Assembly: GCA_031265345.1 (NCBI GenBank)
Contig: JAISCU010000213.1
Location: 1-17,467 of the forward strand
Direction of reading: 5' to 3'
DNA length: 17,467 bases
Origin: Bifidobacteriaceae bacterium
GTDB lineage: Bacteria; Actinomycetota; Actinomycetes; Actinomycetales; WQXJ01
Part shown: positions 263 to 17,467 of the stretch, piece by piece
Layout of the letters: every line of letters begins with the position of its first letter
Numbering within the stretch: the stretch's first letter is position 1
Notes under the pieces: model-generated
Told to the model about the DNA's origin: nothing
The model's database searches: none
Seen by the model: only the letters and a program-made list of their open reading frames with translations
Program-made: the position numbers and the translations under genes

Positions 263-2854
263 GTGGATCATTGCGCCATCACAGCCGGGTTCGTCCGCGT
301 CGCCGCCTGCTCGCTGCCGGTTCACCTAGCCGACCCGGCAGCCAATGCGACAGCCATAGGCGATCAAGCCAGAGCCGCCGCCGATTCGGGCGCCGCCCTG
401 GTCGTCTTCCCTGAATTGAGCGTCACCGGGTACTCGTTGGATGACCTGTTCATGCAATCGGCGCTCCTCGACGCCACCACCACCGCGCTGGCCGAGCTCG
501 CGGAACAGTCGCGCGACCTGCCCGCCGCTCTGGTCGTGGGCGCGCCCCTCCGCGTCACGCACCGCCTCTATAACTGCGCCGTCGTCATCGCGGGTGGCCG
601 CATCCTGGGCGCGGTCCCCAAGTCCTACCTCCCGAACTACCGTGAGTTCTACGAGCACCGGCAGTTCGCCTCCGGTGTGGGCTTCGAAGGCACTACCAGG
701 ATCGCCGATGCCGTCGTCCCAGTAACCACGAAGCAACTGTTCGATATTTCGTTCGGCTCGCCCGCCATTTCCTCCGCCGCGCCCCGCGCCGCCCAAGACG
801 ACCAAGACCACCGAGATCACCAAGGCGACCAAGACGACGCAAGGCGAACCGGCACTGACGCGGGAGCCGGGCTGACGGCATCGTCCATGCGACTCGGGAT
901 AGAGATCTGCGAGGACCTGTGGGTGCCCATCCCGCCGGGCGCGGAGGCGGCCCTGGCTGGTGCCGAAGTGATCGTCAACATCTCCGGCAGCCCCATCACG
1001 GTGGCGAAGGCCCGCGAGCGCCGCCGCCTCAGCGAGGTCCAGTCGGCGAAGCTGATCTGCGGATATGTCTATGCTGCCAGCGGCAAGGGCGAGTCTTCGA
1101 CGGATCTGAGTTGGGACGGGCAGACCCTGATCTTCGAGCGCGGAGAACTGCTCGCACAAGGCCCGCGCTTTGCCGATGCCGCTGTCTCGGCCCTGGCTGA
1201 CCTCGACCTCGCCCTGATCCGGCAGGACCGCCTCCGGCAGGGCACGTTCGATGACAACAGGGTGGCTTGGGCGGACCGGATCGGGCGCTTCCAGACTGTA
1301 GCTGTCCAGCTGCCAACGCCTGCGCGCCCGCCGATGCCGCCCACACAGCCCGGGACCGCGCCATCCGCCCAGCCTGACGCGGCCCCGACACAGCCTGGCG
1401 CGGCCCCTATGCGGCCCGGCGCGACGCCGCCCACGCTGGCCGGTGGCTCGCCGCCCGCACAAGCTGGTGCGCTGCCGACGCAGGTCGGCGCGCCGCTGAC
1501 AGAGCCCGGCGCGACGTCTACGCCGTCCGGCGCGACGCCTACACTGCCCGGCGCGGCGCTGCCCGCACCGCACGGGACCGCGCCATCCGCGCAGGCTGGT
1601 GCGGCATCTCCCGCACTGCCCGGTGCGGCGCTGCCCGCACAGGCGGGTGCGGCATCTCCCACACAGGCGGGCGCGGCCCCCACGCGGTCCGGCGCGATGC
1701 CGCCCACGCCGTCGCCGCCCGCGCCTCTGGCCGAGCCTTCGCGACCAACCCGCCTGATGCGGGAGATCGCCCGTTTCCCGTTCGTGCCGGACGACCGTGC
1801 CCGGCTCGACCAGGACTGCTACGAGGCTTACAACATCCAGGTCAGCGCGCTGGTGAAGCGGCTGACATCCATCGGAGAGCCGAAGGTGGTCATCGGCGTG
1901 TCGGGCGGCCTCGATTCCTCGCACGCGCTGATCGTGGCGGCCAAGGCGATGGACCAGTTGGGCCGCCCCCGCGCGGACATCCTGGCCTACACCATGCCTG
2001 GGTTCGGCACCACCCACGCCACCAAGGCGAACGCAGCGGCGCTGGCGAACGCGCTCTCGGTGAGTTTCGAGGAGCTCGACATCCGGGCGGCCGCCCGGCA
2101 AATGCTGGCCGACATCCATCACCCCTTCGCGCGGGGGCATCCTGATTACGACATCACGTTCGAGAATGTGCAGGCCGGTCTGCGCACGGACTACCTGTTC
2201 CGGATCGCGAACTATCGCGGCGGCATCGTGCTCGGCACTGGCGACTTGTCCGAACTCGCGCTCGGGTGGTGCACCTACGGCGTGGGCGACCAGATGTCGC
2301 ACTACAACGTCAACGCGGGCGTGCCGAAGACGCTGATCCAGTATCTGATCCGCTGGGTCGTGAAGACGGCCCAGTTCGATGAGCAAGTCGGTCGGACTTT
2401 GCAGGCGATTGTCGAAACGGAGATCAGCCCCGAGCTGGTGCCCCCGGGGGAGGGCGGCGATCCTCAATCGACGCAATCCGTGATCGGGCCGTACCCGTTG
2501 CAGGACTTCACGCTGTATTACACGCTCCGGTTTGGGCTCACGCCCAGCCAGGTGTTCTTTCGGCAGCGCGAGGCTTGGGAGGACCCTGGCCGGGGCCGGT
2601 GGCCGGACGGCGTGCCCGCCCAGGACCGGCGCGGCTATGGTCCCGAGGCGCTGGTCCACTGGCTGGAGGTCTTCTACCGACGCTTCTTCTGGGCCCAGTT
2701 CAAGCGTTCAGCCCTCCCGAACGGGCCGAAGGTGGTGCGTGCGGGTTCGCTGTCTCCGCGCGGCGACTGGCGTCAACCGTCCGACGCGACGGGCGAACTC
2801 TGGCGCCGCGAGATCGACGCCCTCAAGGCGCGCTTCGGCCGCCCCGAACCATGA
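263..2854 (+). CDS. nadE: Glutamine-dependent NAD+ synthetase with expanded interdomain linker
   Basis: This enzyme amidates nicotinic acid adenine dinucleotide to NAD+ using ATP and ammonia released from glutamine, in the cytosol. The GTG start at 263 follows GGGAG by 9 nt and puts GFVRVAAC at the same place as in mycobacterial NadE. Residues 1 to about 345 form the nitrilase-type glutaminase domain, with the triad E51 (FPELS), K120 (PKSYLP) and C216 (EICED). The synthetase domain starts near residue 495 and has the P-loop SGGLDS at 547-552; the C-terminus (SPRGDWRQPSD) is typical. The protein is 863 aa against about 680 for the mycobacterial enzyme. The excess is an Asp/His/Gln-rich insertion before C216 and about 145 residues of Pro/Ala/Gly-rich repeats at roughly 350-494, exactly between the domains. 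All catalytic motifs are intact, so activity is likely. Confidence 0.95.
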   Translation: MDHCAITAGFVRVAACSLPVHLADPAANATAIGDQARAAADSGAALVVFPELSVTGYSLDDLFMQSALLDATTTALAELAEQSRDLPAALVVGAPLRVTHRLYNCAVVIAGGRILGAVPKSYLPNYREFYEHRQFASGVGFEGTTRIADAVVPVTTKQLFDISFGSPAISSAAPRAAQDDQDHRDHQGDQDDARRTGTDAGAGLTASSMRLGIEICEDLWVPIPPGAEAALAGAEVIVNISGSPITVAKARERRRLSEVQSAKLICGYVYAASGKGESSTDLSWDGQTLIFERGELLAQGPRFADAAVSALADLDLALIRQDRLRQGTFDDNRVAWADRIGRFQTVAVQLPTPARPPMPPTQPGTAPSAQPDAAPTQPGAAPMRPGATPPTLAGGSPPAQAGALPTQVGAPLTEPGATSTPSGATPTLPGAALPAPHGTAPSAQAGAASPALPGAALPAQAGAASPTQAGAAPTRSGAMPPTPSPPAPLAEPSRPTRLMREIARFPFVPDDRARLDQDCYEAYNIQVSALVKRLTSIGEPKVVIGVSGGLDSSHALIVAAKAMDQLGRPRADILAYTMPGFGTTHATKANAAALANALSVSFEELDIRAAARQMLADIHHPFARGHPDYDITFENVQAGLRTDYLFRIANYRGGIVLGTGDLSELALGWCTYGVGDQMSHYNVNAGVPKTLIQYLIRWVVKTAQFDEQVGRTLQAIVETEISPELVPPGEGGDPQSTQSVIGPYPLQDFTLYYTLRFGLTPSQVFFRQREAWEDPGRGRWPDGVPAQDRRGYGPEALVHWLEVFYRRFFWAQFKRSALPNGPKVVRAGSLSPRGDWRQPSDATGELWRREIDALKARFGRPEP
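1310..1746 (+). repeat. Pro/Ala/Gly-rich minisatellite inside nadE
   Basis: About 14 imperfect units of 7-8 codons, each ending in a GA(A/T/L/P) step preceded by PG, AG, VG or SG, encode an apparently disordered stretch of about 145 residues. The repeat stays in frame throughout. It coincides with the linker between the glutaminase and synthetase domains, the one place where length change should be least harmful to either fold. Confidence 0.85.
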
Positions 2855-2858
2855 GATT

Positions 2859-2875
2859 GGGGACATAGTCGTGCT
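2859..2875 (+). repeat. Possible degenerate end of a GGGGAC-type repeat element
   Basis: GGGGAC is followed 4 nt later by TCGTGCT just after the nadE stop codon. The same combination, with a longer gap, opens the folded element after trpEG at 5783. No matching inverted end is visible nearby, so this may be a decayed half-copy or chance. Confidence 0.25.
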
Positions 2876-2957
2876 GCCACTGTTCAGGGTGGCGCGGTGA
2901 TTCTTGCGCGGCTGAGTGACCGCCTTCCATCGACGGCCCCGGACCGGCACCGAAGCG

Positions 2958-3172
2958 GTCGCCGCGCCGAGCGCCCCCATCTGCGTCCTGAAGCTCGCCG
3001 GCTGCCCCCAATTGCACCCTGAAGTACGTCGTGCCCGCTTTTGCGCTGCCGACAGCGTCGAGTGCCCGCGATTGCACGCCGGAGTTCCTCGAGTGCCCGC
3101 TTTTGCACCCCAGACCGCGTCGAGTGCCCGCGATTGCACCATGAAACTCGTCGAGTGCCCGCTTTTGCATGG
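2958..3172. repeat. Array A: seven tandem units with 31-nt period
   Basis: Seven units are centred on TGCCCGC-xxTTGCA-type cores starting at 2972, 3003, 3032, 3063, 3094, 3125 and 3156. Spacings are 31, 29, 31, 31, 31 and 31 nt; the short one reflects loss of two bases. The best units (3058-3170) contain TCGAGTGCCCGC followed alternately by GATTGCA and TTTTGCA, so there is also a 62-nt double period. The first two units are degenerate. A period of 31 is not a multiple of 3 and no frame is conserved across units, so the array is not coding. I do not recognise the family. Confidence 0.85.
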
Positions 3173-3223
3173 GAGGGTTTGGCGTTCCCGCAGGTCAACG
3201 TCTCGGAGCCGTCCGGGTGAGGG

Positions 3224-3316
3224 TGTAAAACGAGGCACTCGATCCCGAATCGGGTGCATTTGTGGGCACTCGATGCAAACGAGCGCGCAAAAGCAGGCAC
3301 TCGACGCACCAAGACG
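3224..3316. repeat. Array B: three 31-nt units in inverted orientation
   Basis: Three units start at 3224, 3255 and 3286, again exactly 31 nt apart, but in the opposite orientation to array A. Each contains GGCACTCGA (3234, 3265, 3296) preceded by a TGCAAAAGC-like stretch, the reverse complement of the array A core. Arrays A and B therefore converge on about 50 nt of non-repeat sequence and could pair as a long imperfect stem in RNA or as a cruciform. Confidence 0.8.
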
Positions 3317-3445
3317 GCGGCGCCGCCCGAACGGGCTGCCCCACCGGCCGCCGTACCTTGAATCGTTAGGTCGTGTTGACGCCGGGTCTCTGGCTGGGTC
3401 GTGCCGTCAGCCCAGTTCCGAAGCTATCCCTGGAGCGAGCCCGCG

Positions 3446-3475
3446 TTGCGCCCGCCTGCCGATTGATGGCATATT
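3446..3475 (+). promoter_or_regulatory. Candidate promoter for the trp leader
   Basis: TTGCGC (3446-3451) and CATATT (3470-3475) are separated by 18 nt and resemble -35 and -10 boxes. Transcription would start at about 3482-3483, right on the GTG of the leader peptide, implying a leaderless leader-peptide mRNA. Neither box is a strong match, so this is an inference from position. Confidence 0.35.
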
Positions 3476-3482
3476 GGATGGC

Positions 3483-3524
3483 GTGCTGAACATCGACCGC
3501 CGTGAGTGGTGGCCCGCCGTCTAG
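3483..3524 (+). CDS. trpL: Tryptophan leader peptide
   Basis: A 13-codon frame from GTG 3483 to TAG 3524 encodes MLNIDRREWWPAV, with two adjacent Trp codons at 3507-3512. Trp is the rarest amino acid, and a tandem pair in a tiny frame just upstream of a chorismate-using gene is the hallmark of a transcription-attenuation leader. No clear ribosome binding site precedes it, which fits leaderless translation. The Trp codons sit immediately before the first hairpin arm of the attenuator. Confidence 0.85.
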   Translation: MLNIDRREWWPAV

Positions 3525-3592
3525 GCGGGTGATGTCGGCGAACACCATGATGTAAGCGAACACTCAGACCGCCTGGGCCCAGGCGGTCTTTG
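3513..3592 (+). promoter_or_regulatory. Tryptophan attenuator with terminator and antiterminator
   Basis: Arm 1 CCCGCC (3513-3518) pairs with GGCGGG (3524-3529), forming a hairpin directly after the Trp codons. The terminator is a perfect 24-nt palindrome at 3566-3589 (12-bp stem) followed by TTTG. The word AGGCGG occurs both at 3523-3528 and in the descending terminator arm at 3581-3586, so the two copies compete for CCGCCT (3569-3574). A ribosome stalled on the Trp codons would cover arm 1, free AGGCGG at 3523 to bind CCGCCT, and prevent the terminator. With ample Trp-tRNA the terminator forms. Confidence 0.85.
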
Positions 3593-3632
3593 TATTGGAC
3601 CCCTCGGCCCAGGCTCGACGGCTGGAGGAACC

Positions 3633-5774
3633 ATGAACGCCCACACGAACACCGAGTCCGCGCCCGCGGTTGCATCGCATGCAACACGCCCCGCATCGAC
3701 CGCGCCCGCCTCAGCGGCCTCCATGGCATCCTTCCTTCCGCCTGCCGATCAACCGTTCGCCCTGATCAGGCGCGGCGGCTCGGCCGTGGTCGAGGTCCTG
3801 ACCGGACCAGTGAAGGACGTGGACAAGACCGGTGATATTCCGCTGGAGGACAAGCCGGTGCTGGCGGTGGTGCCGTTCCGGCAGATCGCCGAGCGCGGCT
3901 TCGACGTGGTCGACGACCAAGCGCCGCTGCGCTGCCTGATAGTGGAGCAGCGCAGTCGGATCGCGGTGAAAGACCTGATCGAGTCCCTGCCCGCAGGACC
4001 GCCGCCGTTCACGGCGGAGGGCTTCGACATTTCCGATTCCGATTACTCCGACCAGGTCAAACAGGTCATGAGCGAAGAGATCGGGCGCGGCGAGGGCGCC
4101 AATTTCGTGCTCCACCGCTCGTTCAGGGGCCGAGTCGACGCCGACCCCCGCGAGGCGGTGCTGGCCTGGATGGCCGCCCTTCTGCGCGCGGAGCAGGGCG
4201 CCTACTGGACTTACGCCGTGTTCACGGACGGCCTGGCTTTCGCGGGCGCGAGTCCCGAGCGCCATGTGACCGTCAAGTCGGACCTCGTGACGATGAACCC
4301 GATCTCCGGCACCTACCGCCATCCGCCCGAAGGCCCCACGGTCCCCGGAATGCTCGCGTTCTTGACCGACACCAAAGAAGTCGATGAACTTTTCATGGTG
4401 GTGGACGAGGAGCTCAAGTTGATGTGCGCGGCCTGCCCCAGCGGCGGCCGCATGATCGGGCCGTACCTGAAGCCGATGAGCAAGGTCACGCACACTGAGT
4501 ACCTGTTGGAGGGGCTCACCGCGGCCGATCCCCGCGAGGTCTTGCGCCAGACCATGTTCGCCCCCACCGTCACCGGTTCTCCCATGCAGAACGCTTGTGC
4601 TGTGATCGCTCGGCGGGAGAAGCGGCCGCGCGGCTACTACGCCGGGGTCCTGGCCCTGTTCGAGCCCAGCCCGGCCGGCGTGTGGGACCTCGACGCTCCG
4701 ATCCTCATCCGCACCGCCTATGTCGACGGCGCCGGCCGGGTCGCGGTCCCCGCCGGCGCCACGCTGGTCCGCCACTCCGATCCGGCGAGCGAGGTGGCCG
4801 AGACCCGCACCAAGGCTGCCGGAGTGCTGACCGCGATTGGCGCCCTGCCAGACGCCCAGCCGGGTTCCTCCCCGAACCCCCACTCGCACGATGCCGCCGG
4901 GCCGCCTCCCGCTCACCCGTCGGGTCCCGGCTCCCCGCCGCCCCCAGCCCGATCGAAGGTCCCCACCGCGGTCACCGCCCCGGCCGCGATTCCCACCGCC
5001 TCCCCGCGCCAGTTCGTTCCCCCGAACGGCCCGGATCGGCGGCAGTTTCCCGCCGTCAACGCCGGGCCTGTCGAGTCCGTTCCGATTGCCGCAGTGGCGG
5101 AAGACCCCCAGGTCAGGGCCACGTTGCTGTACCGCAACGAGCGGCTGGCCCAATTCTGGCTGCGCCCGCAGGCATCTGGCGCGAGCCCGTTGGCGGGCCT
5201 CGAGACGGTCGTCATCGACGCTGCGGACAACTTCTCGCAAATGCTGGCCCACTTGCTGAGACGTCTGGGCTCTTCCGTGAGGGTGGAGTCCTGGCGGACG
5301 TACCGGCCGGGGCCGGAGGGCTTGGTGGTGCCGGGCCCCGGCCCAGGCGACCCGATTGGGGACGAGCCACGAATCGCGAAGCTGCGCCACGTCATCGGGC
5401 AATGCCTGGAGGAGGGTAGGCCGTTCCTGGCCGTGTGCCTGTCCCACCAGATCCTGGCCCACCATCTGGGGCTCGACTTGCGCCAATTGGCTCGGCCGCA
5501 TCAGGGCGAGCAGCTGACGGACGATCTGTTCGGCATGTCCGCCACGCTCGGCTACTACAACACTTTCACTGCTGTCGCCCCGTTGGAAGCCCTGCCCAAC
5601 CTCGAAGTGGTGCGCAGGCGGGGAGCTGATGAGGTGATAGCCCTGCGCGGCCCCAATTTCGTCTCCCTCCAGGGCCACCCCGAATCGGCCCTCTCCCCGG
5701 ACGGCCTGTCCCTTCTGTCCGCCGTCCTGCCCGCACTCCTCTCCGGCGCCACCCCCTTCCCCCCCCAACGCTGA
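3633..5774 (+). CDS. trpEG: Fused anthranilate synthase TrpE-TrpG, PhzE-like
   Basis: The 713-aa protein joins a chorismate-binding subunit (about residues 30-400) to a class I glutamine amidotransferase (about 524-713) through a Pro-rich linker (about 403-485). The product is expected to be anthranilate, the first step of tryptophan synthesis, from chorismate and glutamine. Motifs are NPISGTY at 222-228, GPGPGDP in the oxyanion region, nucleophile C602 in CLSHQ, and H682/E684 in GHPES. CLSHQ and YNTF are more reminiscent of PhzE (aminodeoxyisochorismate synthase of phenazine pathways) than of classical TrpG (CLGHQ). The attenuator upstream argues for a tryptophan role. The start is ATG 3633 after GGAGGA with short spacing; the first 30 residues are low-complexity. 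No other trp or phz gene is in the window. Confidence 0.88.
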   Translation: MNAHTNTESAPAVASHATRPASTAPASAASMASFLPPADQPFALIRRGGSAVVEVLTGPVKDVDKTGDIPLEDKPVLAVVPFRQIAERGFDVVDDQAPLRCLIVEQRSRIAVKDLIESLPAGPPPFTAEGFDISDSDYSDQVKQVMSEEIGRGEGANFVLHRSFRGRVDADPREAVLAWMAALLRAEQGAYWTYAVFTDGLAFAGASPERHVTVKSDLVTMNPISGTYRHPPEGPTVPGMLAFLTDTKEVDELFMVVDEELKLMCAACPSGGRMIGPYLKPMSKVTHTEYLLEGLTAADPREVLRQTMFAPTVTGSPMQNACAVIARREKRPRGYYAGVLALFEPSPAGVWDLDAPILIRTAYVDGAGRVAVPAGATLVRHSDPASEVAETRTKAAGVLTAIGALPDAQPGSSPNPHSHDAAGPPPAHPSGPGSPPPPARSKVPTAVTAPAAIPTASPRQFVPPNGPDRRQFPAVNAGPVESVPIAAVAEDPQVRATLLYRNERLAQFWLRPQASGASPLAGLETVVIDAADNFSQMLAHLLRRLGSSVRVESWRTYRPGPEGLVVPGPGPGDPIGDEPRIAKLRHVIGQCLEEGRPFLAVCLSHQILAHHLGLDLRQLARPHQGEQLTDDLFGMSATLGYYNTFTAVAPLEALPNLEVVRRRGADEVIALRGPNFVSLQGHPESALSPDGLSLLSAVLPALLSGATPFPPQR

Positions 5775-6385: not shown

Positions 6386-6409
6386 AGTCCCGTGGTCCAA
6401 ACCGCCCAC

Positions 6410-6460
6410 AAAGACAAAAGCCGTGACTCTCGGCGCCGAGAGTCACGGAATTCGTCTTTT
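6410..6460 (+). terminator. Long hairpin after cdd, possible terminator
   Basis: Positions 6421-6448 are a perfect 28-nt palindrome (14-bp arms beginning CCGTGACTCTCGG). Outside it AAAGAC (6410-6415) pairs with GTCTTT (6454-6459), and the structure ends in TTTT. It starts 25 nt after the cdd stop, so it could terminate cdd. It is also the head-to-head junction of two array C units, and the symmetry may simply come from that. Confidence 0.5.
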
Positions 6461-6645
6461 CTGGAGCGCCGACTGAATCGAGTGCCAGGGAATTTGTCTT
6501 TTCGCGAGCGAGACCATTTCGGCGCGGCTCGCTGGCCTGCGGTTTCATGTTTCGTCGCGCAGGGTGTCGTCAGCCAAAAGACAAATTCCCTGGATGTCGA
6601 TTTCGGAGGGTTCGGCAGAAAGACAAATTCCGTGGGTGTCGCGAC
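6410..6645. repeat. Array C: five units with 42-nt spacing, partly inverted
   Basis: Five units contain AAAGACAAATTCC-like cores. Two point left (GTCTTTT at 6454 and 6496, exactly 42 nt apart) and two point right (AAAGAC at 6577 and 6619, again 42 nt apart). A further right-pointing unit at 6410 is fused head-to-head with the first left-pointing one through a perfect palindrome. The unit ending at 6502 also contains TCGAGTGCC (6478-6486), the core word of arrays A and B. I see no gene in 6386-6825. Confidence 0.75.
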
Positions 6646-6825
6646 CGAAAACCACGATTGCCGAGCACAACTCCAGGTTCTGGTCGATATGGCGCGGCGA
6701 CGACCGGTAACGTGGGCACTGATGGAAGACGAAGGAGAGCCGAATCCGCGAGTGCGGGTAGCGCCGCCCGCGCCGGAACCGCCAAGAACACCAGGTGCGC
6801 CAGGAAGCCCAGGAAGCCCAGGAAC

Positions 6826-8844: not shown

Positions 8845-10140
<1,296 letters not shown>

Positions 10141-10153
10141 CGCGGCAAGATCA

Positions 10154-10203
10154 GGGGAGGAGCCGGCGCCTGGGGGTAGGCGCCGGCCCCTCCCCCTTTC
10201 TTT
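10154..10203 (+). terminator. Rho-independent terminator of eno
   Basis: A 10-bp GC-rich stem (10162-10171 with 10178-10187, loop GGGGGT) is extended by GGGGAGG (10154-10160) pairing with CCTCCCC. A T-rich tail (TTTCTTTG) follows. It lies 14 nt after the eno stop codon and is the clearest intrinsic terminator in the window. Confidence 0.9.
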
Positions 10204-10328
10204 GTCGTTTGGGCAATCTGCACGATGCCGCGCGCCCGTCTCCCCGCGCCGTCCACAGCTCTGCTCGTGGTCGGCCTGGGCGCCGAGATTCGGTGTGGGC
10301 GGCCCCGAGCGGCAACGTCAGTCGAGGA

Positions 10329-10348
10329 ATCGACTAGAATTCTGGTCT
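10329..10348 (+). promoter_or_regulatory. Promoter and possible operator of the relBE-type pair
   Basis: TAGAAT (10335-10340) is a good -10 box and overlaps the palindrome AGAATTCT (10336-10343), a plausible autorepressor site for the antitoxin. The start codon is only 8 nt downstream, so the mRNA would be leaderless or nearly so. No clear -35 box is visible. Confidence 0.4.
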
Positions 10349-10636
10349 ATGGCCAGCGTTATGTCATTGTCGGAGGTCAAGTCCCGGCTTTCTGAGGTGG
10401 CTGACGAGATCTTTCGGACGCACGACCGCGTCAACGTCACACGGAATGGGCGCGAGTTCGTCGTGATCATGTCGGCGCAGGAGCTTGAGTCGTTGGAGGC
10501 AACGATCGAGTTGTTGGAGGACCGGGCAGCCCAAGACCGGATCAGGCAAGCTGAGAAGGATCTGGCCAATGGCGACTTCACGACTGCGGAGAGCCTGGGC
10601 AAGCTGATGGAGGAGCGGCGCCGCAGTGGCCGGTGA
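10349..10636 (+). CDS. Type II antitoxin, Phd/YefM (RelB-like) family
   Basis: This is a 95-aa protein whose N-terminal half (MSLSEVKSRLSEVADEIFRTHDRVNVTRNGREFVVIMSAQELESL, split here as recognised segments around residues 5-49) matches the Phd/YefM DNA-binding fold common in actinobacterial RelBE-type pairs. The acidic and basic C-terminal part should wrap the toxin. It would neutralise the downstream RNase and repress its own promoter. ATG 10349 is preferred because the family pattern begins 5 residues later; no Shine-Dalgarno is visible, consistent with a leaderless transcript. The stop overlaps the toxin start by 11 nt, indicating translational coupling. It lies in DNA inserted downstream of eno. 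Confidence 0.88.
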   Translation: MASVMSLSEVKSRLSEVADEIFRTHDRVNVTRNGREFVVIMSAQELESLEATIELLEDRAAQDRIRQAEKDLANGDFTTAESLGKLMEERRRSGR

Positions 10637-10904
10637 CGGTTACCGTGTGATTCTGGTGCCTGGGGCACGGCGGGCATTGTCCGAATCGCTTCCTCCTTCG
10701 GTCGCGTTCGCGGCGTACGAGTTCATTGTCGGGCCGCTGGCGGCGAACCCCTGGCGGGTCGGTGCGCCACTGCGGGCGCCCTTCGCAGGCTACCATCGCG
10801 CGCGGCGCGGCGAGTACCGGATTCGGTACCGGATAGACCGTGAGAGCCTTTTGGTCACCGTGCTGGACATCGACCACCGCCGCGACTCGTACCACGCTGG
10901 TTGA
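10626..10904 (+). CDS. Type II toxin, RelE/ParE family mRNA interferase
   Basis: The 92-aa protein has the RelE/ParE pattern: an N-terminal strand (YRVILVPGARRAL), the GPLAANPWRVGAPL turn, a basic GEYRIRYRID strand and the terminal DIDHRRDSYH motif. Members of the RelE branch cleave mRNA at the ribosome; Arg and His/Tyr residues near the C-terminus do the chemistry and are present here. The GTG start at 10626 lies inside the antitoxin gene. The pair looks complete and is probably functional. RelE and ParE activity cannot be separated from sequence alone, although the HRRDxY ending favours RelE. Confidence 0.87.
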   Translation: MAGDGYRVILVPGARRALSESLPPSVAFAAYEFIVGPLAANPWRVGAPLRAPFAGYHRARRGEYRIRYRIDRESLLVTVLDIDHRRDSYHAG

Positions 10905-14566: not shown

Positions 14567-14640
14567 GCCCCCATAGCCCAATTGGCAGAGGCAACCGGCT
14601 TAAAACCGGTCCGGTGCGAGTTCGAGTCTCGCTGGGGGCA
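14567..14640 (+). tRNA. tRNA with anticodon TAA (Leu), short variable loop
   Basis: All four arms fold: acceptor 14567-14573 with 14633-14639, a 3-bp D stem (14576-14578 with 14590-14592), and an anticodon stem ACCGG/CCGGT around loop CTTAAAA. The T arm is GCGAG-TTCGAGT-CTCGC. The anticodon TAA is at 14601-14603, reading leucine codon UUA. The discriminator is A14640 and CCA is not encoded. The variable region is only 5 nt (14611-14615), so this is a class I shape, whereas bacterial leucine tRNAs normally have a long variable arm. The identity Leu rests on the anticodon only. Confidence 0.9.
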
Positions 14641-14704
14641 CTTTTGATGTGCCCTGGTTCGGCCAGTCCGCCCGCCCCGGCGATCACACGGAACGCCGGT
14701 TCGC

Positions 14705-14733
14705 ATGCTTGCATTATGATAAAGTGCAAGCAT
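14705..14733 (+). promoter_or_regulatory. Operator and -10 box of the fitAB-type pair
   Basis: Perfect 9-bp arms ATGCTTGCA (14705-14713) and TGCAAGCAT (14725-14733) flank 11 nt that contain a -10-like TATGAT (14715-14720). The site is 23 nt before the antitoxin start. Ribbon-helix-helix antitoxins of this family bind such inverted repeats and block the promoter, so this is a strong candidate autoregulatory site. Confidence 0.75.
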
Positions 14734-14756
14734 ACGTCGATGAGAGGTCGTGGAAG

Positions 14757-15035
14757 ATGCCGTCTGTCACCGTCCGAAACGTGCCCGAGGAAGTGCATCG
14801 CGCTATCCGTTCGCGCGCCGCGCAGCATGGCCGCAGCATGGAAGCGGAGTTGCGCGACATCCTGGAATCCGCAGTCAGGCCGCGTGGCCGGTTGAAACTA
14901 GGCTCGACCTTGGCCCAGATAGGGCGCGAGGTGAATCTTTCCGATGCGGAGTTCGCGGTCTTCACGAGCGCCCGCAACGCCGCTAGCGCGGACGCCGCCA
15001 CCGCACATCAGGCCAGAGCGGCGAGCCTCGAATGA
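14757..15035 (+). CDS. FitA-like (VapB) ribbon-helix-helix antitoxin
   Basis: The 92-aa protein starts with the ribbon-helix-helix pattern SVTVRNVPEEVHRAIRSRAA, followed by GRSMEAELRDIL, typical of FitA-type antitoxins that bind DNA as dimers. Its C-terminal half should insert into the partner toxin. ATG 14757 follows AGAGG by 9 nt and lies just downstream of a palindromic operator; an in-frame ATG at 14649 would begin upstream of that operator. The stop codon overlaps the toxin ATG by 4 nt, the usual coupled arrangement. The pair sits immediately after a tRNA gene, a common landing place for accessory DNA. Confidence 0.9.
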   Translation: MPSVTVRNVPEEVHRAIRSRAAQHGRSMEAELRDILESAVRPRGRLKLGSTLAQIGREVNLSDAEFAVFTSARNAASADAATAHQARAASLE

Positions 15036-15451
15036 TCCTCCTGGACACGAATGTGGTTTCCGAGCCGCTGCGCCGCATGCCTGAGGGCCGTGTCATCACA
15101 TGGATAGACGCGCAGTCTTCGGAAACGCTATTCATGGCGACGATGACCGTGGCGGAGTTGCGCGCAGGCGTCGCGCTGCTACCGCTGGGCAAGCGTCGAG
15201 CCGCCCTGCGCGAAGAAATCGAGACCCGCGTGTTGCCCATGTTCATCGGCCGCGTGCTGCCGTTCGACATGGCCTGCACGGTCGCCTACGCGGAGTTGGT
15301 GGCCAGGACCCGCGCGGCCGGCCGGCCGATCGAGACGGCCGCCGCCTGCATCGCAGCAGTCGCTGTCGCCAACGGGCTCACCGTCGCCACGTGCGACACG
15401 GAGCCCTTCCTCGCGGCGGGCGTGCGCGTCGTCGACCCGTGGGAGGCGTAG
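15032..15451 (+). CDS. FitB-like (VapC) PIN-domain toxin missing one acidic residue
   Basis: The 139-aa protein has the PIN fold pattern of FitB, a Mg2+-dependent RNase held inactive by its antitoxin. D5 in LLDTNVVSEP, E42 in TVAELRAG and D122 in ATCDTEPF align with three of the four acidic residues of FitB. The fourth, D104 in the usual ADAQIAA helix, is Ala here (AAACIAA; codon GCC at 15341-15343), one base change from GAC. Other parts are intact and no frameshift is visible. It may therefore be catalytically dead or weakened while still forming the autoregulatory complex. A near-identical 75-nt piece of this gene recurs at the window end. Confidence 0.88.
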   Translation: MILLDTNVVSEPLRRMPEGRVITWIDAQSSETLFMATMTVAELRAGVALLPLGKRRAALREEIETRVLPMFIGRVLPFDMACTVAYAELVARTRAAGRPIETAAACIAAVAVANGLTVATCDTEPFLAAGVRVVDPWEA

Positions 15452-15679: not shown

Positions 15680-17257
15680 ATGGCGGATGACCTGCCGCTG
15701 GACCCGTCCGGCAGGATAGCTCTGGCAGAGGGAAAGACGTTCGAGTACAAGCGGGACTTGTCCAGCCCCGACGAGGCGTTGGAATCTGTCGTTGCGTTCG
15801 CCAACTCGGCCGGGGGCAGGCTGGTCATCGGCGTCGCCGATTCGGGCGAGGTTGTCGGCGTGGTCGATCCGCTACTCGAAGAAGGGCGGCTGACTAATCT
15901 GATCTCGGACTCGATCATGCCCCAGTTGCGCCCCACCGTCGAGTTGGTGCCCCTGGCGGGCAAGACCGTCCTGATCGCCAAAGTCTGGCTGGGCTCGCAG
16001 CGCCCGTATTACCTGAAGAGGCTCGGTCCGCGGCAAGGGGCGTACATCCGGGTCGGAGCGAGCGACCGGCAGGCCAGCGCGGCGATGGTCGCTGAGTTGC
16101 GCCGTTCCGCGGAGGGCATTTCTTTTGATCAGTTGCCAGCTTCGCGCGCCAAGTTCACCGATTTGGATATCCCGCTGATGGCCGGGCTGCTGGGGAGGAA
16201 TGTGGATCAACGGATGCTGCGGACACTGAGGCTGATCGTGGAGGACCAGGGTGAGTGGGTTCCCTCCAACGGCGGCGTGCTGGTCGGGTGCGAGCATCCG
16301 GAGATGTTCTTGCCCCACGCTTGGGTGCAGTGTGCCCGCTTCCGGGGCCCCCGGAAGCGGGACATCTCCGACAAAGCGAACATCCGGGGGCCGCTGCCAG
16401 CGGCCATCGACCAGGTCATGGCCTTCTTCCGCCGCCACGCCTTCCTGTCTTCGAAGTTCGGGGAGAGTCCCCGCCGCCAGGACGTGTGGTCGTTGCCGTT
16501 CGACGCGCTGGAAGAATTGGTCGTCAACGGGCTGGTGCATTCCAGCTACGACGACCATGGCACGCCTCTCAAGATCGCGTTCCGTGACGAGGCGATATCC
16601 ATCGAGAGCCCTGGTGGGCTGGTGCCCGGTCTGACCGTGGAAGACATGGTCGAGGGCACTTCGGTGATCCGCAACCCGGTCCTGGCGCGGGTATTCGAAG
16701 AGCTCGGGCACATCGAGCAGTGGGGGTCAGGCATTCCCGAGGTCATCCAGGACTTGGCCGAGGCGGGACTTCCGCCGCTCGGTATTGAGGAACGCCGCGA
16801 GCGGTTGAGGTTCACAATCGCGATTCCTAGCCACGATCCGCGCTATTTCGAGCCCACTTGGCGGTCGCGCCCACAGGGTGCGCCGGGAAGTACACGAGTC
16901 GCGCCCGAAAGTGCACAAGTCAATGCACAAGTCAGGCCGAAGAATGCACAAGTCAATGCACAAGTCAATCTCGACCATTCACGAGTGCCGGCCGGATTGG
17001 GACGGCATGGCGTGACGATTCTGGCGGCGCTGGCCCGCGGCCCGCTGAGCCGGGCGGAGACCCTCGGCGCCATTGGCCTCAAGAACACCTACCCCTCCCA
17101 CCGCCGTCACCTCATCCCGCTGATCGAGCGCGGCTTGGTCGGAATGACCAACCCCGACAACCCGACGGCCCACACCCAGGCTTACGCCCTGACCGGTCTC
17201 GGTAGGTCAGTCCTGGCAGCGGTCGCTGACCCCAGGGTGACCGAGGACGCTTCGTAG
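15680..17257 (+). CDS. AlbA_2/GHKL-type putative transcriptional regulator (Schlafen-like)
   Basis: The 525-aa protein starts with an AlbA_2 (Schlafen) domain, residues about 15-140: EGKTFEYKRDL, then AFANSAGGRLVIGVADSGEVVGV. A GHKL-like ATP-binding region follows (about 275-390) with an N-box E279/N283 in ELVVNGLVHSSY, IESPGGLVPGL, RNP and GSGIPEV. A hydrophilic linker with AQVN repeats (near 411-430) leads to a C-terminal winged helix (about 445-515). Proteins of this architecture are usually annotated as ATP-dependent helicase-like or transcriptional regulators, frequently in mobile or defence-rich regions; their biochemistry is poorly known. ATG 15680 follows AAGGAGG by 6 nt, an excellent signal. 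It stands alone, flanked by the two FitAB copies. Confidence 0.85.
   Translation: MADDLPLDPSGRIALAEGKTFEYKRDLSSPDEALESVVAFANSAGGRLVIGVADSGEVVGVVDPLLEEGRLTNLISDSIMPQLRPTVELVPLAGKTVLIAKVWLGSQRPYYLKRLGPRQGAYIRVGASDRQASAAMVAELRRSAEGISFDQLPASRAKFTDLDIPLMAGLLGRNVDQRMLRTLRLIVEDQGEWVPSNGGVLVGCEHPEMFLPHAWVQCARFRGPRKRDISDKANIRGPLPAAIDQVMAFFRRHAFLSSKFGESPRRQDVWSLPFDALEELVVNGLVHSSYDDHGTPLKIAFRDEAISIESPGGLVPGLTVEDMVEGTSVIRNPVLARVFEELGHIEQWGSGIPEVIQDLAEAGLPPLGIEERRERLRFTIAIPSHDPRYFEPTWRSRPQGAPGSTRVAPESAQVNAQVRPKNAQVNAQVNLDHSRVPAGLGRHGVTILAALARGPLSRAETLGAIGLKNTYPSHRRHLIPLIERGLVGMTNPDNPTAHTQAYALTGLGRSVLAAVADPRVTEDAS
16910..16972 (+). repeat. AQVN-coding short repeats in the regulator gene
   Basis: The decamer TGCACAAGTC occurs four times, two pairs with 12-nt steps, and encodes a linker built from AQVN and AQV units. 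Similar QV-rich repeats before the winged helix are a familiar feature of this protein architecture. Confidence 0.75.
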
Positions 17258-17326
17258 CTCACGGGAACGGGCCAGCACGTCGCCGGGGTCGGGCACCTCC
17301 GTGATTCGAGCCGCAGGTCCTGGAGC

Positions 17327-17467
17327 ATGCTGTTCGGCACCGTCCGAAACGTGCCCGGCGAGATGGGTTGGGCCGCTCTGCGCCAAGGCCTGGAGACCCG
17401 GGTGTTGCCCATGTTCATCGGCCGCGTGCTGCCGTTCGACATGGCCTGCACGGTCGCCTACGCGGAG
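17327..17467 (+). pseudogene. Chimeric remnant of a second FitAB pair, cut by window end
   Basis: ATG 17327 opens a frame of 47 codons still open at the end. Its first codons copy the antitoxin N-terminus (TVRNVP; 17338-17357 is identical to 14768-14787). After about seven further codons it becomes the toxin from the residue equivalent to A57 onward; 17393-17467 matches 15221-15295 with one mismatch in 75 nt. The antitoxin body and toxin N-terminus, including D5 and E42, are absent, so it cannot be a working PIN nuclease. The join is in frame. An internal deletion within a duplicated fitAB pair explains it best. Confidence 0.8.

Follow-up and report, generated by a model that had tools for sequence, protein, structure and literature searches.

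Convergent phased arrays around a common centre motif: a candidate, probably mobile, non-coding element of actinobacteria

The spacer between a NadE-type gene (positions 38-2854) and a TrpE-TrpG fusion gene (3633-5774) of a Bifidobacteriaceae bacterium (contig JAISCU010000213.1; the whole stretch of 17,467 nucleotides that was analysed is called the window below) was found to contain two convergent arrays of short units on either side of a conserved centre. We regard this feature, with moderate confidence, as a copy of a MITE-like element that is interspersed, non-autonomous and without coding capacity, in which arms made of predicted same-face protein sites surround a proposed site for a shared host factor. 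The element would belong to a previously unrecognised, actinobacterial and probably mobile kind. If this reading is right, there is a class of palindromic interspersed elements particular to actinobacteria, in which the arms change while the helical phase and the centre stay.

Paired arrays in the nadE-trpEG spacer

The host spacer of the arrays (2855-3632) is 778 nt long. Units of the arrays have the core GAGTGCCCGC(TTTT|GATT)GCA, and those on the + strand, counted at GTGCC, start at 2971, 3002, 3031, 3062, 3093, 3124 and 3155, which gives steps of 31, 29, 31, 31, 31 and 31 nt in order. The parts of the element are as follows.

Full element: about 390 nt in the nadE/trpEG spacer, non-coding
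2969..3018, + strand: outer left-array units (2971, 3002), degenerate, with 3 and 1 mismatches to GTGCCCNNNNTTGCA; steps 31 and 29 nt
3029..3169, + strand: left array of five units (3031, 3062, 3093, 3124, 3155) in exact 31-nt steps; TTTTGCA/G alternates with GATTGCA
3170..3223, no strand: gap between the arrays, conserved (TGGGAGGGTTTGGCGTTCCCGCAGGTCAACGTCTCGG...), common to the window element and its homologue L001 (below)
3187..3198, + strand: centre motif CCCGCAGGTCAA, a variant of the family motif ACCGCAGGTCAG
3224..3302, - strand: right array of three convergent units (3224-3238, 3255-3269, 3286-3300) in exact 31-nt steps
3303..3337, no strand: right flank, conserved, with the end ...CCAAGACGGCGGCGCCGCCCGAACGGGCT, where the L001 homology stops

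The periodic paired arrays at 2971-3300 are real, and the observation in the earlier note of seven + units and three convergent units (2971-3169 and 3224-3300, respectively) is confirmed, as is the alternation of TTTTGCA and GATTGCA cores, which was recovered as a 62-nt repeat family and by TRF (period 62); the right (-) array alternates likewise (TTTT, AAAT, TTTT). The 31-nt step described there is exact in the five inner + units and in all three - units, but one step is of 29 nt and the two outermost + units are degenerate. The limits given (2958-3316) were about right, conservation with L001 reaching approximately 3337 and including the gap between the arrays. Within the spacer, 47 fifteen-nt windows repeated at lag 31, a count reached by none of 500 dinucleotide shuffles of the spacer, in which the maximum at any lag was 12. 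A loose one-unit pattern showed no enrichment (45 matches in the window against 61.7 expected), and the signal is therefore that of the array and not of the single unit. Two further candidates were rejected: a hidden protein over the array, for which one of several overlapping ORFs (2823-3170, - strand) was used in a protein search that gave no relative at E <= 0.01, and a known RNA family, Rfam covariance models at gathering scores having matched only a tRNA at 14567 in the window and nothing at the element. Downstream of the arrays, the spacer also holds a likely trp leader at 3483-3524, whose short frame starts with GTG, has two Trp codons in a row and closes with ...REWWPAV; a strong terminator-like hairpin comes next, at 3566-3589, ahead of trpEG.

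An RNA fold-back, in which the arrays would be transcribed either together with nadE or upstream of trpEG, giving a long hairpin that would be processed or would stop transcription, is in our judgement unlikely. RNA folding is strong (z-scores of -6.9 and -7.1 for the window element and L001, respectively), the arms differ between elements yet match within an element, and the - strand has one weak 5-pair terminator-like match in the right array (3310-3296; the scan found 2 against 0.4 expected). However, the opposing window arms match in their cores only (identity 0.73), the linkers being near chance (0.35), so that what is kept is the spacing and not whole-arm pairing; moreover, on the + strand the scan placed its sole terminator-like site at 3566-3589, after the element, and the homologous copy stands in another gene context. 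Whole-turn steps, together with a match between arms that is confined to the cores, favour sites on one face of the DNA, and the units are accordingly better described as candidate same-face DNA sites than as pairing RNA. The earlier note had offered both readings. Its phased protein-binding array gains indirect support from steps of 20-21, 31 and 42 nt that are kept across different arm sequences (below) and from the non-complementary linkers, the sites themselves being predicted; as for its RNA fold-back, such folding could occur (z about -7), yet it is not what the linkers or the phasing suggest.

Copies, arms and centre motif in related genomes

Scanning of genome contigs with a two-unit pattern of the window array produced a single record, JAISBQ010000213.1 (genome G001, locus L001), from a MAG labelled Bifidobacteriaceae in which this contig is possibly misbinned. 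The L001 element, present as a single copy, is the sole close relative that the window element has. The two are 85% identical over 220 nt, gap and right flank included, and L001 has five units that converge in the same way at exact 31-nt steps. The enolase of G001 is 83% identical to the window's, and that of other family members up to 94%. The neighbours of L001 are a C-5 cytosine DNA methylase, repetitive frames and a frame of 278 codons that matched no Pfam family, not nadE or trp, and the tie to these two genes proposed in the earlier note therefore looks incidental. In two of six stretches upstream of trpEG from relatives (L046 and L048), a nadE-like end adjoins trpEG and the spacer is short and array-free, all by eye, compared with 778 nt in the window. 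The whole element was not found in phages, and plasmids gave one 41-nt match (an Embleya plasmid); in five other order genomes the matches were weak, short and chance-like by eye.

The window itself contains a second element, described by the following features.

6403..6656, no strand: second element, same design, between cytidine-deaminase and phosphomutase-type genes
6437-6468 and 6479-6510 (+ strand) facing 6570-6599 and 6612-6641 (- strand): second-element units in 42-nt steps, with a different core GGAATTTGTCTTTT
6532..6543, - strand: second-element centre motif ACCGCAGGCCAG

A BLAST search of 18 family genomes with the second array (6396-6660), run without a positive control, gave no match. 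Elsewhere in the window, two toxin-antitoxin-like pairs were noted, at 9962-10904 (Phd/YefM with a ParE-type toxin) and 14649-15451 (FitA-like with a PIN-domain protein), and the ORF at 17182-17451 starts like that at 14983-15279, which suggests another copy, truncated at the edge of the window.

Comparison of the window element, L001, the second window element and the L053 elements revealed that the arms differ and that a centre is common to all. This conserved centre, the second element and the signs of mobility described below are absent from the earlier note. The family centre motif approximates GCAT[A/C]ACCGCAGGTCAGAGCNNTG, and its core ACCGCAGGTCAG matched 90 times in the 18 family genomes, where the reversed control matched 13 times. 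Seventy loci around core matches, corresponding to 67 distinct instances, were examined together with the window, and 20 further G012 stretches were added. Not every match is an element: some look coding, and the G018 copies (L123, L127) look by eye like coding repeats. Unselected neighbours before the core, at 124 dissimilar sites, read G-C-A-[T/A]-[A/C]; positions after the core are partly fixed by the search patterns. A possible association of motif sites with DnaA boxes (4/162 against 13/1,610) was set aside, and a naive reading of gene context in L188-L297 gave no informative pattern. The frame downstream of the centre motif in L071 (around 1500) resembles the actinobacterial IHF gene. 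Other palindromic tandem repeats were also seen in family genomes (L055, 847-1176; L059, 585-737), namely a 153-nt tandem with inverted parts and hairpin units with the core CGAGTTTCACCTTTCC at an 83-nt step in G001.

Arms were sought at 200 distinct motif sites, each flanked by 60 nt or more, and inverted arms (score of at least 14) were present at 43 of them, compared with 1.2% of 1,988 flank pairs from different loci, while detectable arms were lacking at 157. The armed sites came from G012/G010 (20), G003 (7), G016 (5) and other genomes (11), four genomes (G012, G010, G003 and G016) supplying 32 of the 43. In the author's reading they form 13 arm families, and arm sequences differ between elements. 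Eight families have a robust tandem step, defined as one supported by at least five windows: 31 nt in G012 with its G010 copy, in L093 and in the window element with L001; 42 nt in the second window element; 21 nt in L198 and in G016; 20 nt in L199; and 13 nt in L239. Seven of these eight step 20-21, 31 or 42 nt (2, 3 or 4 helical turns), within 1 nt of multiples of 10.5, the exception being L239; extra lags of 13 nt occur in L119 and L198, and of 17 nt in L199. The remaining families have single units (G003) or weak steps (for example, 37 nt in L270 and 19 nt in L089), and a separate repeat in L053, with an 87-nt step, misfits the helical rule. Across 31 G012 loci scanned, 7 of which were without a core, 45 of 45 same-strand neighbours lay 31 nt apart (44 distinct, contig C37 having been read twice); as the copies share descent, their equal steps count as one observation. 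A 42-nt tandem is also present outside the left arm of the G012 copies. At 95 order and viral sites, arms scoring at least 14 were found in 4.2%, against 0.5% of random places, and are thus rare outside the family. Because most motif sites are without arms and arms are rare at the order and viral sites, centre and arms are separable.

Centre motif beyond the family

The motif form ACCGCAGGTCAGNGC was present in 86 of 396 order genomes, with 156 matches by hand sum, of which 112 were outside family genomes (21 and 20, respectively, for the control). In the phylum, CATMACCGCAGGTCAG was found in 9 of 396 genomes, one of them (G051) apparently with coding matches; the five G051 matches were rejected as elements, since they fall where a repeated, apparently coding and presumably transposase-like frame ends. 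A longer motif form occurred in at least 80 IMG/VR contigs, and a 30-base motif query with an E-value limit of 10 matched 662 of 50,697 phage records, which by the first word of their names comprised 659 with actinobacterial hosts, one 'Bacteriophage', and two of Erwinia and Salmonella. The motif is often repeated, in either orientation. None of the L309-L323 sites reached an arm score of 14 (best 13). In five Streptomyces plasmids, among 40 matches listed, the motif was 795-894 nt from the record end. The right end of Gordonia phage Daredevil (L306) has eleven copies of GCAGGTCAG (five +, six -) in 1,676 nt, nearly all of them non-coding.

Such positions bear on a further explanation, an attachment or replication site, in which the centre would serve as the core for recombination or initiation, with the arrays as arm-type or iteron sites, as in a phage attP or a plasmid origin. 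In phage Wee the motif directly follows a tRNA-like attP core (by eye), upstream of a Y-integrase, and in phage Patt it lies 120 nt upstream of an integrase. Of 60 phage records taken at even steps from the list, many of them related, 47 have it no more than 300 nt from a genome end, and in L314, L316 and L320 (around 1504) it directly follows a tRNA-like 3' end (by eye), with a terminator-like hairpin next in two of them. A longer motif form occurs in the phiJoe paper, which has an int-attP primer (PMC5311408). We nevertheless doubt that the window element is such a site: the ten window frames first scanned included no integrase or replication family, no tRNA is nearer than 14567, G012 alone has 169 cores, and ARAGORN placed a tRNA within 150 nt of none of 114 motif sites in L188-L297.

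A tentative proposal, to which we give a modest chance, is that the centre motif is the recognition site of a phylum-wide actinobacterial bending or binding factor, which phages and linear plasmids may use near attP, cos sites and ends, and which the elements may use as a hinge between phased, fast-changing arrays, that is, as a modular hub. If true, the centre would be a handle on a factor that chromosomes, plasmids and hundreds of actinophage records share. The mIHF protein was considered as the centre-binding factor and set aside as unsupported, because a ChIP study in M. tuberculosis, in its available part, describes its sites as lacking a common motif (PMC6155035).

Mobility, mechanism and comparison with known systems

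Elements of this kind are dispersed in multiple copies in G012 and G003. The 169 cores of G012 (at up to two mismatches) belong to copies on many contigs, and 23 aligned copies share a right end, mean column identity being 0.79 at +120, 0.54 at +130 and 0.48 at +140. The G003 element is 107 bp long, with CTAG at both ends in six script-matched loci of the eight given. In L087 (G003) it lies inside a frame, and its excision together with one CTAG yields a 232-codon frame through the junction, whose end we take to be like that of an FtsX-type permease; since the occupied site also keeps a 279-codon open frame at its left edge, the argument for interruption rests on the continued protein sequence. 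As this CTAG version has single-unit arms, the mobility shown is that of a cousin and not of the phased form itself. The window copy, at which no target duplication was seen, may itself have moved. Neither a transposase nor a recombinase was noticed in or beside elements in the stretches read, nor was a wide arm pair, as of a parent transposon, among the listed G012 core positions, where contigs often break at copies.

The mechanism that we propose for the MITE-like element starts from its family-wide centre, which has on either side a convergent array of putative element-specific sites, of about 17-20 bp, at whole-helical-turn spacing. An element-specific protein (transposase, recombinase or regulator) would bind the arm units side by side on one DNA face, while a common actinobacterial factor would bind the centre and bend or bridge the DNA. 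The two arms could then meet in one nucleoprotein complex, which might mobilise the element or, in situ, insulate or organise the locus.

A nucleoid or regulatory element, BIME-like, kept for the host and bound by architectural proteins without current mobility, is quite improbable. Both window sites are intergenic and helically phased and have a common centre, and the Correia elements with an internal IHF site described in the accessible part of one report (PMC2229807) may be compared; however, the non-orthologous positions and the gene-interrupting G003 copy point to movement, and the M. tuberculosis mIHF sites, as far as the above study was available, are without a common motif (PMC6155035). 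The earlier note had held that the arrays would come down to a local tandem duplication if relatives contained no further phased copies, or randomly spaced ones; the copies found in relatives were phased. A local duplication without wider meaning can be dismissed as very improbable, even though just 1 of the 396 order genomes matched the core pattern CGAGTGCCNNNNTTTGCA and one-mismatch cores were rarer than the reversed control in the 18 family genomes (56 against 147, hand sum), because the same element occurs elsewhere (L001), the same architecture recurs with other cores, and the G012 copies are phased.

The element resembles MITEs, REPINs and BIMEs and fits none of them fully; no description of such elements in actinobacteria was among the matches listed in a literature search. 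In phage attP regions (lambda, L5), a core is flanked by arm-type sites; the likeness here lies in a core with inverted groups of protein sites and in the centre motif beside an attP-like core in phage Wee, whereas the window copy has no integrase (ten frames scanned) or tRNA identity. RIB elements have a host-factor site between units, and we know of no sequence relation between the window element and enterobacterial BIMEs or RIBs. Regularly spaced units in opposite orientation are common to BIMEs (PMC2817692, in the part available), RIBs and the present element, which differs in being actinobacterial and in unit steps of 2, 3 or 4 turns. With MITEs and Correia elements, as the accessible part of the report above describes them, it shares shortness, a non-coding nature, inverted arms, a proposed internal host-factor site and, in the G003 version, a target duplication (PMC2229807), but its arms are phased arrays, its centre motif is common to phages and plasmids, and no parent transposon is known. 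REPINs, or REP doublets, which go with RAYT transposases, consist of two short inverted units around a spacer and are extragenic and multi-copy, according to the available part of their description (PMC3116915). The present element is similar in its inverted doublet of units around a spacer, its extragenic and multi-copy occurrence and its genome-specific unit sequence; its units are not self-palindromic as those of REPINs are, no inverted repeat of at least 12 nt having been found within a unit. It differs from REPINs further in having several units per arm at fixed helical steps, and in that the centre, rather than the arms, is conserved across genomes.
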